From: Paracoccus bogoriensis
GTDB lineage: Bacteria > Pseudomonadota > Alphaproteobacteria > Rhodobacterales > Rhodobacteraceae
Direction: 5' to 3'
Length of the DNA stretch: 64,000 nt
Assembly: GCF_019431455.1 (NCBI RefSeq)
Contig: NZ_JAHYSR010000004.1
Location: forward strand, 1 to 64,000
Under the pieces are notes generated by a model that saw nothing but the letters and a program-made list of their open reading frames with translations, was not told the origin of the DNA and made no database searches. This document shows positions 872 to 6,974 of this stretch, piece after piece. How positions within the stretch are numbered: the first letter of the stretch is position 1; every line of letters starts with the position of its first letter. A program made the translations under genes and the position numbers.

Positions 872-1906
872 TCATGTGCGCGTTTTCAGCAGACCCATGA
901 TGTCCTTGGTCCTTTCCAGGATCGGGCGCGCGATGGCGTCGGCGCGCTCAGCGCCATCGGCCAGGATGCGGTCGATCTGAGCGGGGTCGGCCATGTATTC
1001 GCTCATGCGGCGGGTGATCGGGGACAATACCTGGACTGCGATCTCGGCCAGGGCAGGCTTGAAGCTGGCAAAGCCCTGACCTTCGAAGCGCGCCAGAACC
1101 TGATCGGGGGTCTGATCGGCAAGGGCGGCATAGATGTTGACCAGGTTGCGCGCCTCGGGACGGTCCTTGAGGCCGTCCATCTGGCCGGGCAGCGGATCGG
1201 CATCGGTGCGCGCCTTGCGAATCTTTTGCGCGATCGTGTCGGCATCGTCGGTCAGGTTGATGCGGCTGGCATCCGAGGGGTCGGATTTCGACATCTTCCG
1301 CGACCCGTCGCGCAGCGACATGACACGGGTCGCCACGCCCTCGATGAGGGGCTCGGGGATGGGGAAGTGATTGACCTTGTAGTCGTGGTTGAACTTGGCA
1401 GCGATGTCGCGGGTCAGTTCCAGATGCTGTTTCTGATCCTCGCCCACAGGCACCGCGGTCGCCTGATAGGTCAGGATGTCGGCCGCCATCAGCGCCGGAT
1501 AGGCCAGAAGGCCCAGGCTGACATTCTCGGTGTTCTTGCCGGCCTTGTCCTTGAACTGCGTCATCCGATACATCCAGCCGACGCGGGCGACCGTGTTGAA
1601 CAGCCAGGCCATTTCGGCATGGGCGCTGACCTGGGACTGATTGAACAGGACCGATCGCGCCGGGTCCACGCCCGCAGCCATGAAGGCCGCCGCCGCTTCG
1701 CGGATACGGTTGCGCAAGGCGTCCGGATCCTGCCAGACGGTGATCGCGTGCAGATCGACGATGCAATAGATCGTCTCGGCCTCGCCTCCCTGAAGCGCGG
1801 CAAAGCGTTTCAGCGCGCCAAGGTAATTGCCAAGCGTCAGCCCGCCCGAGGGCTGGATGCCCGAAAAGATGCGCGGGCGGAAGGATGCGTTGATCGGGTC
1901 GGACAT
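872..1906 (-). CDS. trpS: tryptophanyl-tRNA synthetase
   Basis: This cytoplasmic class Ic aminoacyl-tRNA synthetase charges tRNA-Trp with tryptophan using ATP. The 344-residue protein has the usual family length. The HIGH-equivalent signature TLGN sits in [12 protein letters not shown] (residues 19-30) and the KMSKS loop is intact ([10 protein letters not shown]). I chose the start at MSDPINASF because the longer upstream frame is low-complexity and unlike the family. The gene is divergent from the rhomboid-like gene, with 77 bp between the start codons. Its 3' side runs into the decayed IS/pepF region. No attenuator-like Trp-rich leader was noticed. Confidence 0.97.
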
Positions 1907-1983: not shown

Positions 1984-2691
1984 ATGCGTGACCCCTCGAT
2001 GCTGACGCAATCGCCGCTGAACCCGCTGCCGCCGGTGATCTGGCTTCTGGCCCTGCCCATCCTGGCACTGGAGGCGGCCTTTGCCCTTGGCGCCTGGGGC
2101 GTGATCGGCGGCGCGCAGGGGGTCGGGCTGCGGCTGGATGCGATCCGCATGGCGGCCTTTCCGCCGGAACTGGCGCAGCGTCTATGGCAATTCGGCATTG
2201 TCGATACCGGCCAGCTTTATCGCGCGCTCAGCTTCAGCTTCGTTCACGTCTCGCTGATACATGCGCTGTTCGTGGTGGTCTTCACGCTGGCGCTCGGCAA
2301 CATGGTCGCGCAGAACTTCCGTCCCTGGGCGGTGCTGGCGCTGTTCTTCGGATCGGCCATCGGCGGCGCGTTGATCCATGCCGCCATCCTGCCCCTGATC
2401 GGGGCGCGCAATGCGCCGCTGATCGGGGGCTATCCGGCGGTTTACGGGCTTGTCGGGGCCTTTACCTTCCTGCTGTGGACGCGGCTTGCAGCCGAGAATG
2501 CGAACCGGCTGCGGGCCTTCCTGCTGATCGGGATGCTGTTGCTGTTCCAGCTAATCTTCGGTCTGGTCCAGGGCGTGCAAGGTCACGGCTGGATCGCCGA
2601 GATCGCGGGCTTTGGCGTCGGTTTCCTGTTGTCTTTCCTGCTGGTCGATGGCGGTTTGAAACGTGCGCTGGCGCAGATCCGCCAGCGCTAA
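1984..2691 (+). CDS. rhomboid-family membrane protein, probably catalytically inactive
   Basis: The 235-residue polytopic membrane protein has the rhomboid fold signature: an [13 protein letters not shown] segment (residues 84-96) and several hydrophobic helices. The catalytic GxSG is replaced. IGGYPAVYG aligns with the usual IGASGAVYG, so Ser becomes Tyr150. The catalytic His of the AH..G helix becomes Glu206 ([11 protein letters not shown]). It therefore resembles a pseudo-rhomboid, with a binding or chaperone role inferred rather than proteolysis. I chose ATG 1984 because AAGGAA lies about 8 nt upstream; a longer frame opens at 1948. Its TAA overlaps the murJ stop codon on the other strand. 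Confidence 0.85.
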
Positions 2692-4211
2692 CCGCGCCTC
2701 AGGGCGGCTTTCAGCTCGGATGGGCGGTAGCCGCCGATCACGAAGGCCAGCGCGAAGTAAAGCGCCGCGCCCCCGAAGACCATGATCGCCAGCGCGGGAA
2801 TGCGCGGCCAGTCGGTCAGACCCTCGCGCAGGAACCACAGCGCCAGCGCCATCAGCGCCGAGCACGCCAGAAGCCGGGGCAGGGCGCGGCGCAGGCGGGG
2901 ATCGACGCGCACCGCCTCGCCCATCGCGCGGCTGCCCCACCACAGTTGCGCCGCCATGACCCAGGCCGCCAGCGTCGTGGCCAGGGCCGCCGCCAGAAAG
3001 CCGATCAGCGGCATCAGCCCGAAGGCCACGACCGCGTTCACGATCATCGAATGGACCGCATAGCGGAAGGGCGTGCGCGTATCCTCGCGCGCGAAGTAGA
3101 GCGGTTGCAGGATCTTTTGCAGCACGAAGGCCGGCAGGCCAAGCGCATAGACCAGAAGCGCCGCCGCCGTCTGCTGTGTGTCGAATGCGGTGAAGGCGCC
3201 GCGCTCGAACAGCGTGCTGACCATCGGTTCGGCGATCACCGCGATGGCAAAGGCCGCGGGCAGGGTCAGGAACAGGCCGAATTCGGTCGCCCGGTTGAAG
3301 GCCGCCTGACCGCCGGCCGCATCCCCGGCTTCGAGTCGCCGCGCCAGTTCGGGCAGCAGCACCACCGCCACCGCCGCCCCCACAATGCCAAGAGGCAATT
3401 GGTAAAGCCGGTCCGAATAGTTCAGCCACGAGATCGCGCCCTCGTAGCGCGAGGCGACCTGGCGGCCGACCAGCAGGTTGATCTGCACCACGCCCCCGGC
3501 CAGAATGGCGGGCATGGCCACCCGCACCAGCCGCCGCATCTCGGGGGTCAGGCGGGGCAGGCGGGGCAGGAAGGTCCAGCCGTTGCGGTGCGCATCCCAC
3601 CAGACCAGGCCAAGCTGCGCGATGCCGGTCAGCGGCGTGGCCCAGGCCAGCGTCAGGCCGATATCCCAGCCCATCACCCGCGCCAGCGCCATCGCGGCCA
3701 GAAACAGCAGGTTCAGCAGGACCGGCGCGGCGGCGGCGGCGGTAAAGCGGCCATTCGCATTCAGCACCCCCGAGATCATCGCCGCAAGCGAGATCAGCAG
3801 GATATAGGGGAACATGATCCGGCCATATTCGACCGCCAGATCGAAACGCGCATCGCCCTGAAACCCCGCCGCCATCAGCCAGACAAGGCCGGGCATCGCG
3901 ATCATGCCAATGGCGGTCAGGACCAGCGTGCAGAAGAACAGCCCGTTGAAGGCGTCACCCGCGAAGCCCGCCGCATCCTGTCGGTCGCCCAGCTTCTTCG
4001 AGAACATCGGCACGAAAGCCGTATTGAAGGCCCCTTCGGCGAAAAACCGGCGGAACATGTTGGGCAAGGCCAGCGCAACGAAAAAGGCGTCCGAGACCGT
4101 GCCGCTGCCCAGCCAGCGCGCCATCAGGATGTCGCGGGCAAAGCCCGTCAGCCGTGACAGGAAGGTCCAGCTTCCCACGGCGAGGAAGCCGCGCACCAGT
4201 CCGGTTTTCAT
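2688..4211 (-). CDS. murJ: lipid II flippase MurJ
   Basis: This inner-membrane flippase of the MOP/MVF superfamily moves lipid-linked peptidoglycan precursor to the periplasm. The 507-residue protein is very hydrophobic throughout, with about 14 membrane segments expected. It begins MKTGLVRGFLAVGSWT, followed by the characteristic N-terminal LSRLTGFARDILMA and the conserved FFAEGAFNTAFVP. It lies 3 bp after glnD in the same direction, so the two are probably cotranscribed, a usual alphaproteobacterial arrangement. It converges on the rhomboid-like gene, with the two stop codons interlocked. Confidence 0.96.
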   Translation of the reverse strand: MKTGLVRGFLAVGSWTFLSRLTGFARDILMARWLGSGTVSDAFFVALALPNMFRRFFAEGAFNTAFVPMFSKKLGDRQDAAGFAGDAFNGLFFCTLVLTAIGMIAMPGLVWLMAAGFQGDARFDLAVEYGRIMFPYILLISLAAMISGVLNANGRFTAAAAAPVLLNLLFLAAMALARVMGWDIGLTLAWATPLTGIAQLGLVWWDAHRNGWTFLPRLPRLTPEMRRLVRVAMPAILAGGVVQINLLVGRQVASRYEGAISWLNYSDRLYQLPLGIVGAAVAVVLLPELARRLEAGDAAGGQAAFNRATEFGLFLTLPAAFAIAVIAEPMVSTLFERGAFTAFDTQQTAAALLVYALGLPAFVLQKILQPLYFAREDTRTPFRYAVHSMIVNAVVAFGLMPLIGFLAAALATTLAAWVMAAQLWWGSRAMGEAVRVDPRLRRALPRLLACSALMALALWFLREGLTDWPRIPALAIMVFGGAALYFALAFVIGGYRPSELKAALRRG

Positions 4212-4214
4212 GAA

Positions 4215-6974
4215 TCAAGCCTCTGCCCGTTTGGCCCCGTCGGCGATTGCCGCACGCAGTTTCTTTTCCAATGCGTCGCGCTTGGCCGCGCTGTGCAGCT
4301 TCAGCCCGAACATGTCCTTGACATAGAAGCTGTCCACCACCTGCGCCCCGAAGGTTGCGATGACCGCGCTGACGATCTGGATATGGTTCGCCGCCAGCGT
4401 CCGGGTCAGATCGTAAAGCAGGCCGGGCCGGTCGCGGGTATCCACCTCGATGATCGTGTAGATGTCGCTGCCCTCGTTGTCGAAGGTGATATGCGTCGGA
4501 AAGCGGAATTCGCGGTTGCGCTTCTTCGGCTTGTCGCGGGTCGCGAAAGCGTCTCGGGCGACGATTTCCCCCGCAAGGGTGCGCAGGATGGTCTGGCGCA
4601 GCCGGGGCAGGCGATCCTCGGCAAAGGGGTGGCCCTCGGCATCCTGCACCCAGAACACCGCTGTCGCATAACCGTCGCGCGTCGTGTAGGTGCGCGCATC
4701 GACCACATTCGCGCCCATCAGCGTCAGCGCCCCGGCCAGCCGCGAGAAGATCCCCGGATGGTCGGCCAGAACAAAGGCCGCCTCGGTCGCGTCCCGGTCG
4801 GGATCGGCGCGCATCTCGATGCGGATTTCATCGGGGCTGATCTGGTGCAACATCTGGGCAAAGCTGGCCTGCGTGCGGGTGGTCAGGCCCGGCCAGTAGC
4901 TGTCGTAATGGCGCGCAAGCTCGGCCCGGATGTCGCGCGCATCCCAGCCCCTGGCGACCAGCATGTGGCGCAAGCTGCGCTTGGCCTCGGCCTGGCGGCG
5001 GTCGCGGTTCAGTTCCTCAAGCCCGTTTTCCAGCGCGGCGGCGGTTTCCTGATGCAGCTTGCGCAGCAGCGCGGCCTTCCAGTTGTTCCAGGTGCCCGGG
5101 CCGACGCCGCGAATGTCGCAAACGGTCAGCACCAGAAGCATGTCCAGCCGTTTGCGGGTCTTGACCGCCTTGGCGAAGTCGCGCAGCGTGCGGGGATCGG
5201 CGATGTCGCGCTTCTGCGCCACATCCGACATCAGCAAATGATGGCGCACCAGCCATTCGACCGTGTCCACGTCATCCTGGGCAAAGCCGAACCGCGCCGC
5301 GATCCGACGCGCGATCCGGGCCCCAAGGATCGAGTGATCCTCGGGCCGGCCCTTGCCGATATCGTGCAGCAGCGTCGCCAGATAAAGGACGCGGCGGTTG
5401 ATGCCGCCCGCCCGCATGATCTCTGACGATAGCGGCAGGTCCGCGGGATGCTCGCCGCGCTCGATCTCGGCCAGGGCGGCGACGCATTGGATCGAATGCT
5501 CGTCCACCGTATAGTGGTGATAGTGGTTGAACTGCATCATCGCCACGACCGGCTCGAATTCCGGGATGAAGGCGGCCAGCACGCCCAGTTCGTTCATGCG
5601 CCGAAGCGCGCGCTCGGGATTGCCGTGCTTCAGCAGCAGGTCCATGAAGATGCGCGTGGCCTCGGGGTCGGATTGCACCTTGTCGTCGATCAGGTGCAGG
5701 TTCGCCGCCACCAGCCGCATCGCGTCGGGATGGATCAGGATGCCGGTGCGCAAGGCTTCCTCGAACAGGCGCAGGATGTTCAGAGGATCCGCCAGGAACT
5801 GCGCCTCGTTCTCGTAGGACAGCCGCCCCTGCTGGTCGATGAACCCCGCCCGCATCTTGCGCCTGCGCCGGAACAGCCGCCCCAGCACCGGCGCGGTCCG
5901 CACATGGCGGGTTTCCAGCGCGGTCAGAAAGACCCGGGTCAGCTCGCCCACGCGGGTGGCGTGGCGGAAGTAATCCTGCATGAAGAATTCGACCGCGCGC
6001 CGCGCCGGGCCGTCGGCATAGCCCATGCGGCGCGCGACCTCGACCTGCATGTCGAAGGACAGCACATCGACCGGCCGGCCGGCGATCAGATGCAGATGGC
6101 AGCGCACCGCCCAGAGGAAATCCTCGGCCTGCCAGAAGGCCAGATGTTCGTCGCGGGTAAAAACACCCAGATCGACCAGTTCCACCGCCCGGTCCACGCG
6201 GTGGATGTATTTGGCGATCCAGTAGAGCGTCTGCAGGTCGCGCAGGCCGCCCTTTCCCTCCTTGACGTTGGGTTCGAGGACATAGCGCTGGCCGCCCTGC
6301 CGGGCATGGCGCGCGGCGCGCTCATCCAGCTTGGCCTCGATGAATTCGGGGATGGTGCGTTCGAACAATTCCGACCAGAGCCGGTCGCGCAGTGTCAGCG
6401 CCAGCGGCGCATGGCCCGCCACCAGCCGGTTCTCGACCAGCGCGGTGCGGATCGTCATGTCCGCCTCACCCAATCGCAGGCAATCGTCGATGCTGCGGAT
6501 CGAATGGCCGATCTTCAGCTTCAGATCCCACATCATGTAGAGCATCGATTCCACGACGCTTTCTGCCCAGGCCGTGATCTTCCAGGGCGTCAGGAACAGA
6601 AGGTCCACATCGGATGCGGGCGCCATCTCGGCCCGACCGTAGCCGCCCACTGCCAGCACCGCCAGACGTTCGGAATCCGAGCTGGCTTTTTGCGGATGCA
6701 GCCAGGTGGTCGCCACGTGATGCACGGCGATGACCGTGCTGTCCGTGACCGCGGCAATGGCGCGCACCGCCTCGCGCGCGGCGCGCGGATTGCGGGCGAA
6801 ATCGGCTTCGATCTCTGCCAGAGCGCGGGCGCGCGCCTCGGCGATCAGCGCGACGCTGCGGGCGCGGATCTGGCGCGGCTCGGTCTGGCCCTTCATCGCC
6901 TCGTCCAGGGCCGCGCGCAGATCCAGCGGGTTGGCGAGCGTATCGGGCGCCTCCGGATGGGTGGTCGCGCTCAT
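4215..6974 (-). CDS. glnD: [protein-PII] uridylyltransferase / uridylyl-removing enzyme
   Basis: GlnD is the primary cytoplasmic nitrogen sensor. It uridylylates PII (GlnB/GlnK) under nitrogen limitation and removes UMP when glutamine is high. The 919-residue protein has the full domain set. The nucleotidyltransferase motif GGYGRAEMAPASDVD is at 110-124. The HD phosphohydrolase domain has TVDEHS (489-494) and LLHDIGKG (535-542). Two C-terminal ACT domains follow (DHPGIFSRLAGAL and DRPGLLYDLTRTL) for glutamine sensing. It sits between the PBP activator gene (22 bp) and murJ (3 bp), probably in one transcript. Confidence 0.97.
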   Translation of the reverse strand: MSATTHPEAPDTLANPLDLRAALDEAMKGQTEPRQIRARSVALIAEARARALAEIEADFARNPRAAREAVRAIAAVTDSTVIAVHHVATTWLHPQKASSDSERLAVLAVGGYGRAEMAPASDVDLLFLTPWKITAWAESVVESMLYMMWDLKLKIGHSIRSIDDCLRLGEADMTIRTALVENRLVAGHAPLALTLRDRLWSELFERTIPEFIEAKLDERAARHARQGGQRYVLEPNVKEGKGGLRDLQTLYWIAKYIHRVDRAVELVDLGVFTRDEHLAFWQAEDFLWAVRCHLHLIAGRPVDVLSFDMQVEVARRMGYADGPARRAVEFFMQDYFRHATRVGELTRVFLTALETRHVRTAPVLGRLFRRRRKMRAGFIDQQGRLSYENEAQFLADPLNILRLFEEALRTGILIHPDAMRLVAANLHLIDDKVQSDPEATRIFMDLLLKHGNPERALRRMNELGVLAAFIPEFEPVVAMMQFNHYHHYTVDEHSIQCVAALAEIERGEHPADLPLSSEIMRAGGINRRVLYLATLLHDIGKGRPEDHSILGARIARRIAARFGFAQDDVDTVEWLVRHHLLMSDVAQKRDIADPRTLRDFAKAVKTRKRLDMLLVLTVCDIRGVGPGTWNNWKAALLRKLHQETAAALENGLEELNRDRRQAEAKRSLRHMLVARGWDARDIRAELARHYDSYWPGLTTRTQASFAQMLHQISPDEIRIEMRADPDRDATEAAFVLADHPGIFSRLAGALTLMGANVVDARTYTTRDGYATAVFWVQDAEGHPFAEDRLPRLRQTILRTLAGEIVARDAFATRDKPKKRNREFRFPTHITFDNEGSDIYTIIEVDTRDRPGLLYDLTRTLAANHIQIVSAVIATFGAQVVDSFYVKDMFGLKLHSAAKRDALEKKLRAAIADGAKRAEA

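Follow-up and report, generated by a model that had tools for sequence, protein, structure and literature searches.

A predicted rhomboid pseudoprotease conserved beside trpS in the Rhodobacteraceae

The first 64,000 nucleotides of contig NZ_JAHYSR010000004.1 of Paracoccus bogoriensis (referred to as the window in the rest of the paper) contain a gene (1984..2691, + strand) coding for a 235-aa member of the rhomboid superfamily that lies outside the rhomboid proteases. Judged from its sequence, the protein is a rhomboid pseudoprotease in the broad sense of a kept fold, lost catalytic residues and retention by selection, and we consider it almost certain that this dead protease has a selected function. 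As the whole family has kept the dead fold together with a new, matched pair of residues, its job is probably something other than the cutting of proteins. We refer to it here as the pseudorhomboid.

The gene begins with an ATG codon, about 8 nt downstream of an AAGGA-like ribosome site read from the sequence (+ strand), and ends with a stop codon at 2689-2691. Its divergent neighbour is trpS (872..1906, - strand), which codes for tryptophanyl-tRNA synthetase, and its convergent neighbour is murJ (2688..4211, - strand), which codes for the lipid II flippase. The next gene on the murJ side (4215..6974, - strand), also included in the synteny analysis, lies on the same strand as murJ and is presumably glnD, giving the order trpS (-), pseudorhomboid (+), murJ (-) and glnD (-). 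The pseudorhomboid gene and murJ overlap stop to stop, tail to tail, with 4 nt in common (2688-2691); given this convergent arrangement, they therefore form no operon.

Pfam analysis assigned the protein to the Rhomboid domain (PF01694) with 56.3 bits against a cut-off of 22.6. An AF2 model (pLDDT 82.5, lower in residues 171-200; pTM 0.80) matched GlpG (6pj4; Z 18.5, rmsd 3.0, 176 aligned residues) and, tied with it, iRhom1 (9xy4; Z 18.8, rmsd 3.9, 200 aligned residues); the GlpG match identifies the model as a six-helix rhomboid fold. In a profile-to-sequence alignment with Haemophilus influenzae GlpG (2nr9), Y150 and P151 fell on the Ser of GLSG and the Gly next to it, respectively, acidic residue 206 fell on the His of AAHISG, and V97 (2272..2274, + strand; GlpG N154) fell on the Asn of HILFN. 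The oxyanion Asn is thus a third active-site residue that has been lost besides Ser and His, and the protein carries Y150, E206 and V97 where a rhomboid serine protease has the Ser of GxSG, the His of TM6 and the Asn of TM2. The preliminary description of this DNA had reported the loss of both catalytic residues in an otherwise intact fold. The two motifs on which it relied are present exactly as quoted, IGGYPAVYG at residues 147-155 (2422..2448, + strand) and IAEIAGF at residues 204-210, the latter within WIAEIAGF (residues 203-210; 2590..2613, + strand), and the loss is borne out by the GlpG alignment, by the AF2 model and by the count of Ser-His pairs given below (0/250). The GxxxG spacing of G209 and G213 is retained, and both residues belong to a set of 17 columns conserved in the pseudorhomboids and their active relatives alike. 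We rejected a dyad hidden elsewhere in the protein: among the conserved alignment columns, no Ser column exceeded 76%, and only two His columns exceeded half (85% and 65%); these lie in TM2 and correspond to GlpG H145 and H150.

GlpG-type rhomboids and rhombosortases share the fold and the domain with the pseudorhomboid and differ from it by their catalytic residues; the best NCBIfam matches of the protein were rhombosortase (21.4 bits, cut-off 84) and GlpG (16.6 bits, cut-off 250), both far below threshold. The active class of rhomboids from the same bacterial family (L002, L178, L240 and others) has E30, R50, G105 and the overall sequence in common with it. E30 (2071..2073, + strand) and R50 (2131..2133, + strand) are invariant in 250 of 250 pseudorhomboids and also occur in this related class. 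Unlike the pseudorhomboids, the active class has intact catalytic residues, with ASG in 33/33, His in 32/33 (one gap) and Asn in 33/33 of the genomes whose loci were read, out of 55 genomes with a match over 140 bits.

Among eukaryotic proteins, iRhom1 and iRhom2 (RHBDF1/2) resemble the pseudorhomboid by a rhomboid fold devoid of catalysis, as reflected in the Z of 18.8 to iRhom1. In iRhoms, the Ser motif is altered with a Pro located before the Ser position, an iRhom homology domain occupies loop 1 and the cytosolic N-terminus is long. A Pro in an altered Ser motif is therefore common to both, but in the pseudorhomboid it follows the Ser position and the His is replaced by Asp or Glu. Furthermore, the protein of the window is bacterial and only 235 aa long, its first long helix being preceded by some 16 residues, with no large loop domain, and thus has neither the loop-1 domain nor the long N-terminus of the iRhom architecture. 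Derlins (Der1, Derlin-1) also have a dead rhomboid fold with a proposed part in membrane-protein handling, although their structural match is much weaker (Z 9.9 for 7czb and 8.4 for 6vjz, against about 18 for GlpG and iRhom). No Derlin was found among the sequence-profile matches of the protein, and no p97 partner is known in bacteria.

To describe its conservation, we scored the former catalytic sites in 250 genomes from 199 genera of the family, which we infer to be the Rhodobacteraceae in the GTDB sense and take to correspond to the Paracoccaceae and Roseobacteraceae of NCBI together. An aromatic residue occupies the Ser site in 235 of the 250 (Y 129, F 103, W 3), the others having M (7), T (2) or one each of L, N, D, G, H and S. 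The His site is Asp or Glu in 243 (D 154, E 89), followed by N (2), one each of A, R, S and Q, and one gap; His itself occurs in none, nor does Asn at the oxyanion site. The absence of any Ser-His pair from 250 genomes of 199 genera means that the loss of the catalytic pair goes beyond chance. The preliminary description had proposed a pseudoprotease under selection, and the retention of an aromatic residue and an acid across the Rhodobacteraceae argues in its favour. Among the best 80 loci, nearly all from Paracoccus, the Ser site is Y 78, F 2 and the His site E 75, D 5, and the nearest homologue is 92% identical to the protein of the window. One Paracoccus metagenome-assembled genome, S5R_Sa_20, has two different trpS-pseudorhomboid loci (L099 and L109), each 61% identical to the query, and is perhaps a mixed bin.

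In an even sample of the family (198 genomes, 197 genera), a sequence match to the protein was found in 184 genomes. Locus reading and profile search together assigned the pseudo form to 176 of the 198, membership by score meaning a pseudo profile, built from pseudo members, that scored above the active profile and above 100 bits. Of the 22 genomes without it, four have an active rhomboid in the slot beside trpS (G123, G141, G162, G202) and two have broken remains (G197, G207); locus reading and profile search found no pseudo gene in the remaining 16. We also searched a sample drawn evenly from the class (289 genomes, of which 4 belong to the family and 285 do not; E≤1e-5). Forty-three genomes outside the family matched, the best with 74 bits compared to at least 268 bits for the four family members. 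All 26 of these 43 loci that were read by eye have GxS and His, so that a spread of the pseudo form beyond the family was dropped for want of an example in this one class sample.

In GlpG, the catalytic Ser and His face each other, and by homology the aromatic residue and the acid would do the same in the pseudorhomboid. Because Phe is nearly as frequent as Tyr, it is the ring that has been kept, not the hydroxyl, and the residue is likely an aromatic plug sealing or remodelling what was once the active site. The carboxylate kept in 243 of 250 genomes suggests that the cavity may still be polar, or that the acid may touch a ligand or a client. Since this acid is so widely retained, in a cavity that in GlpG contains water, we considered whether the carboxylate and the Tyr could serve an enzyme of another kind. 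This is very unlikely: the interchange of Tyr (129) with Phe (103) indicates that the protein can do without the hydroxyl, which speaks against an enzyme based on Tyr and led us to reject Tyr as a nucleophile, and no metal-ligand set was found among the polar columns conserved above 85%. The replaced residues might instead merely stabilise a dead fold whose function lies elsewhere, in membrane thinning or in the tails. Both sites do vary within a chemical class (Y/F/W and D/E), and rare members break the pattern (Ser/His sites G/R in L169, D/A in L193 and F/S in L163). We nevertheless find this explanation unlikely, since packing alone would not usually preserve an acid so strongly and repeatedly within a membrane pocket. 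In L193, a single case, the former Ser site has Asp and the former His site has Ala, and the acid may have changed sides.

The pseudorhomboid is under purifying selection. Pairwise dN/dS ratios (NG86, Paracoccus pairs with dS 0.05-1.2) had medians of 0.33 for the pseudorhomboid gene (577 pairs), 0.25 for murJ (525 pairs) and 0.15 for trpS (593 pairs), and in close Paracoccus pairs the values for the pseudorhomboid gene (0.045-0.14) were similar to those of murJ. Moreover, 17 columns have one residue in at least 85% of 235 pseudo genomes and in less than 30% of 33 active relatives: N13, G43, G48, R80, L146, P151, Y154, T161, A178, F179, I182, Q189, F192, F214, G223, G224 and R233, although the short tails align only uncertainly with the active class. 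The pseudo lineage has therefore gained constraints besides losing the catalytic ones. G223, G224 and R233 belong to a C-terminal motif, GG(..)R...R.R (residues 223-235; 2650..2688, + strand), that is conserved in the pseudo clade alone (G223 98%, R233 91%).

Broken copies exist in G197 (L249/L255) and G207 (L251), and one internal stop interrupts L418 in G072, reflecting occasional loss within the crown of the pseudo clade. Some crown genomes, such as G055, G134, G170, G176 and G069, are without the gene, which is thus dispensable in places. Such copies are what a pseudogene on its way out would leave, but for the gene as a whole this is hardly credible: conservation over 199 genera, purifying selection like that on murJ in close pairs and the newly conserved columns led us to reject decay.

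The preliminary description had also pointed to the lipid II flippase gene beside the pseudorhomboid gene. The adjacency is real, and a convergent murJ lies within 400 bp in 169 of the 233 genomes with enough flank (61 of 79 among the best 80 loci, where flank was available). It might mean that the protein works with MurJ or takes part in lipid II handling. However, the two genes lie on opposite strands and share no operon, and where the neighbours part, the pseudorhomboid gene stays with trpS, its head-to-head neighbour in 232 of 233 genomes (78 of 79 among the best 80 loci), rather than with murJ. Outside the family, moreover, murJ adjoins trpS in the absence of any rhomboid, so the adjacency to murJ was probably inherited. 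After this synteny count (169/233 against 232/233), we dropped the MurJ partnership as the main idea and regard it as highly improbable; the hint of a MurJ link in the earlier remark found no support.

The pseudo form forms a single clade in the gene tree, with a support of 99 in a quick tree and of 100/99 in a careful tree from which 6 of 79 rows, some of them long or of odd make-up, had been left out. The history of its slot can be followed in a concatenated tree of trpS and murJ. The 50 genomes chosen for concatenation excluded, among others, G099 (the genome of L239), G130 and G212 as fast or AT-rich, and 8 of 50 rows, again some long or of odd make-up, were dropped from the tree. In this tree the pseudo crown is supported by 100/93, and five genera whose trpS slot holds an intact rhomboid with GASG and AHLGGF (L240 in G202, L241 in G141, L242 in G123, L244 in G162 and L246 in G322) branch below it. 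Relatives with GASG thus exist at the locus, but with their position below the pseudo clade they do not show a single decayed gene. The genera whose slot is empty (G094, G057, G234, G048) take a still lower position. Outside the family, we examined nine trpS loci: in six (G025, G027, G036, G038, G376, G431) murJ lies beside trpS with no rhomboid between them, and in the other three (G418, G494, G028) neither an adjacent murJ nor a rhomboid was seen. The branching order of empty, active and pseudo slots suggests that a rhomboid was inserted and that catalysis was then lost in place, the slot-active rhomboids of the five sister genera possibly representing the ancestral state of the locus. In the trpS tree, G099, G130 and G212 group together below the pseudo crown. 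L239, which comes from the small genome G099, is the sole pseudo-type member with a Ser (GSSP), yet has Asp at the His site; we presume that this exception is due to a long branch.

In the gene tree, the pseudo clade stands beside all active members of the family, slot ones included (100/99), and is not nested among the slot-active ones. Forcing the pseudo and dispersed active copies into one group apart from the slot-active ones cost 16 log units (p = 0.16), or 11 log units with L240 added (p = 0.26), so that neither was rejected; an earlier quick tree had favoured the nested alternative by 7 (p = 0.62). With the nested arrangement not rejected, we regard conversion in place as likely and as the simpler reading; the second possibility is that an older dead paralogue took the place of the slot gene. 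Most likely, an active rhomboid was inserted in the slot, converted or replaced once, and kept. The insertion would date from early in the family and lie between murJ and trpS, antisense to both; the slot protein would have turned catalytically dead in the common ancestor of most members and been retained ever since.

The assembly of the host (3.0 Mb, 97 contigs) has two further rhomboids, L001 and L002, both intact with GASG and His, which brings up another possibility, namely that the pseudorhomboid regulates active rhomboids of the same cell by binding their substrates uncut or by pairing with them. The closest active paralogue was found in 4 of 5 crown genomes without the pseudo gene (counting, of the 22 without it, only those inside the crown whose trpS locus was read: G055, G134, G170, G176 and G069; L286-L288, L292, L294) compared to 46 of 176 genomes with it (P = 0.021, Fisher test, post hoc), and the two proteins may have overlapping work. 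However, this closest class, the only one counted, occurs in no more than 46 of 176 pseudo-bearing genomes, so that the pseudorhomboid is retained without that partner, and a regulatory role seems to us quite unlikely.

Our preferred explanation, to which we give about even odds, is that the protein is an adaptor or chaperone of the membrane that acts without proteolysis, as Derlins and YqgP of Bacillus subtilis, the best-supported analogies, suggest. The rhomboid fold would then be used without hydrolysis, with an aromatic side chain taking the place of the catalytic Ser, a carboxylate in TM6 standing for the His, a proline instead of the Gly that follows the Ser, and no oxyanion Asn. Within the membrane, such a protein would most likely bind transmembrane segments that are faulty or orphaned and hand them over to a partner, perhaps by way of the conserved tails at its two ends. 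The first candidate for the partner would be a processive membrane protease such as FtsH, again by analogy with Derlins and YqgP. YqgP (GluP) is a bacterial rhomboid reported to have a protease-independent role as an FtsH adaptor, its dead S288A mutant still presenting MgtE to FtsH (PMC7231995). Unlike the pseudorhomboid, YqgP is proteolytically active and has an additional N-terminal domain, and its adaptor role requires an unobstructed active site (PMC7231995). This last point runs counter to the analogy, since an aromatic residue probably fills the active site here; a protein plugged in this way would need another surface for the task, be it the lateral gate, membrane thinning or the tails. 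We tentatively propose, while holding it somewhat less probable than its alternatives taken together, a bacterial Derlin-like system, near-universal in one family, that would have taken over a rhomboid locus once, given up Ser, His and Asn in favour of a carboxylate and an aromatic plug, acquired conserved tails in the cytosol, and come to hand membrane proteins on to a partner uncut.

In the literature searched by titles and the openings of abstracts, with subscription journals largely outside it, we found no naturally dead family of bacterial rhomboids; the sole bacterial case was the role of the active protease YqgP (PMC7231995). The main text of a study of essentiality in Rhodobacter sphaeroides (PMC5513736) names neither a rhomboid nor murJ nor trpS.

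Rhomboid pseudoproteases are central in eukaryotes, as iRhoms and Derlins illustrate, and their origin calls for an explanation. In this family-wide bacterial case, the pseudorhomboid and the intact rhomboids that occupy its slot in sister genera lend themselves to direct comparison, and this series of slots, if our reading is true, would be a natural before-and-after record of the passage from protease to pseudoprotease. As the gene is present in the genetically tractable Paracoccus denitrificans (L133), both this origin and the non-proteolytic work of the protein would be testable in bacteria.
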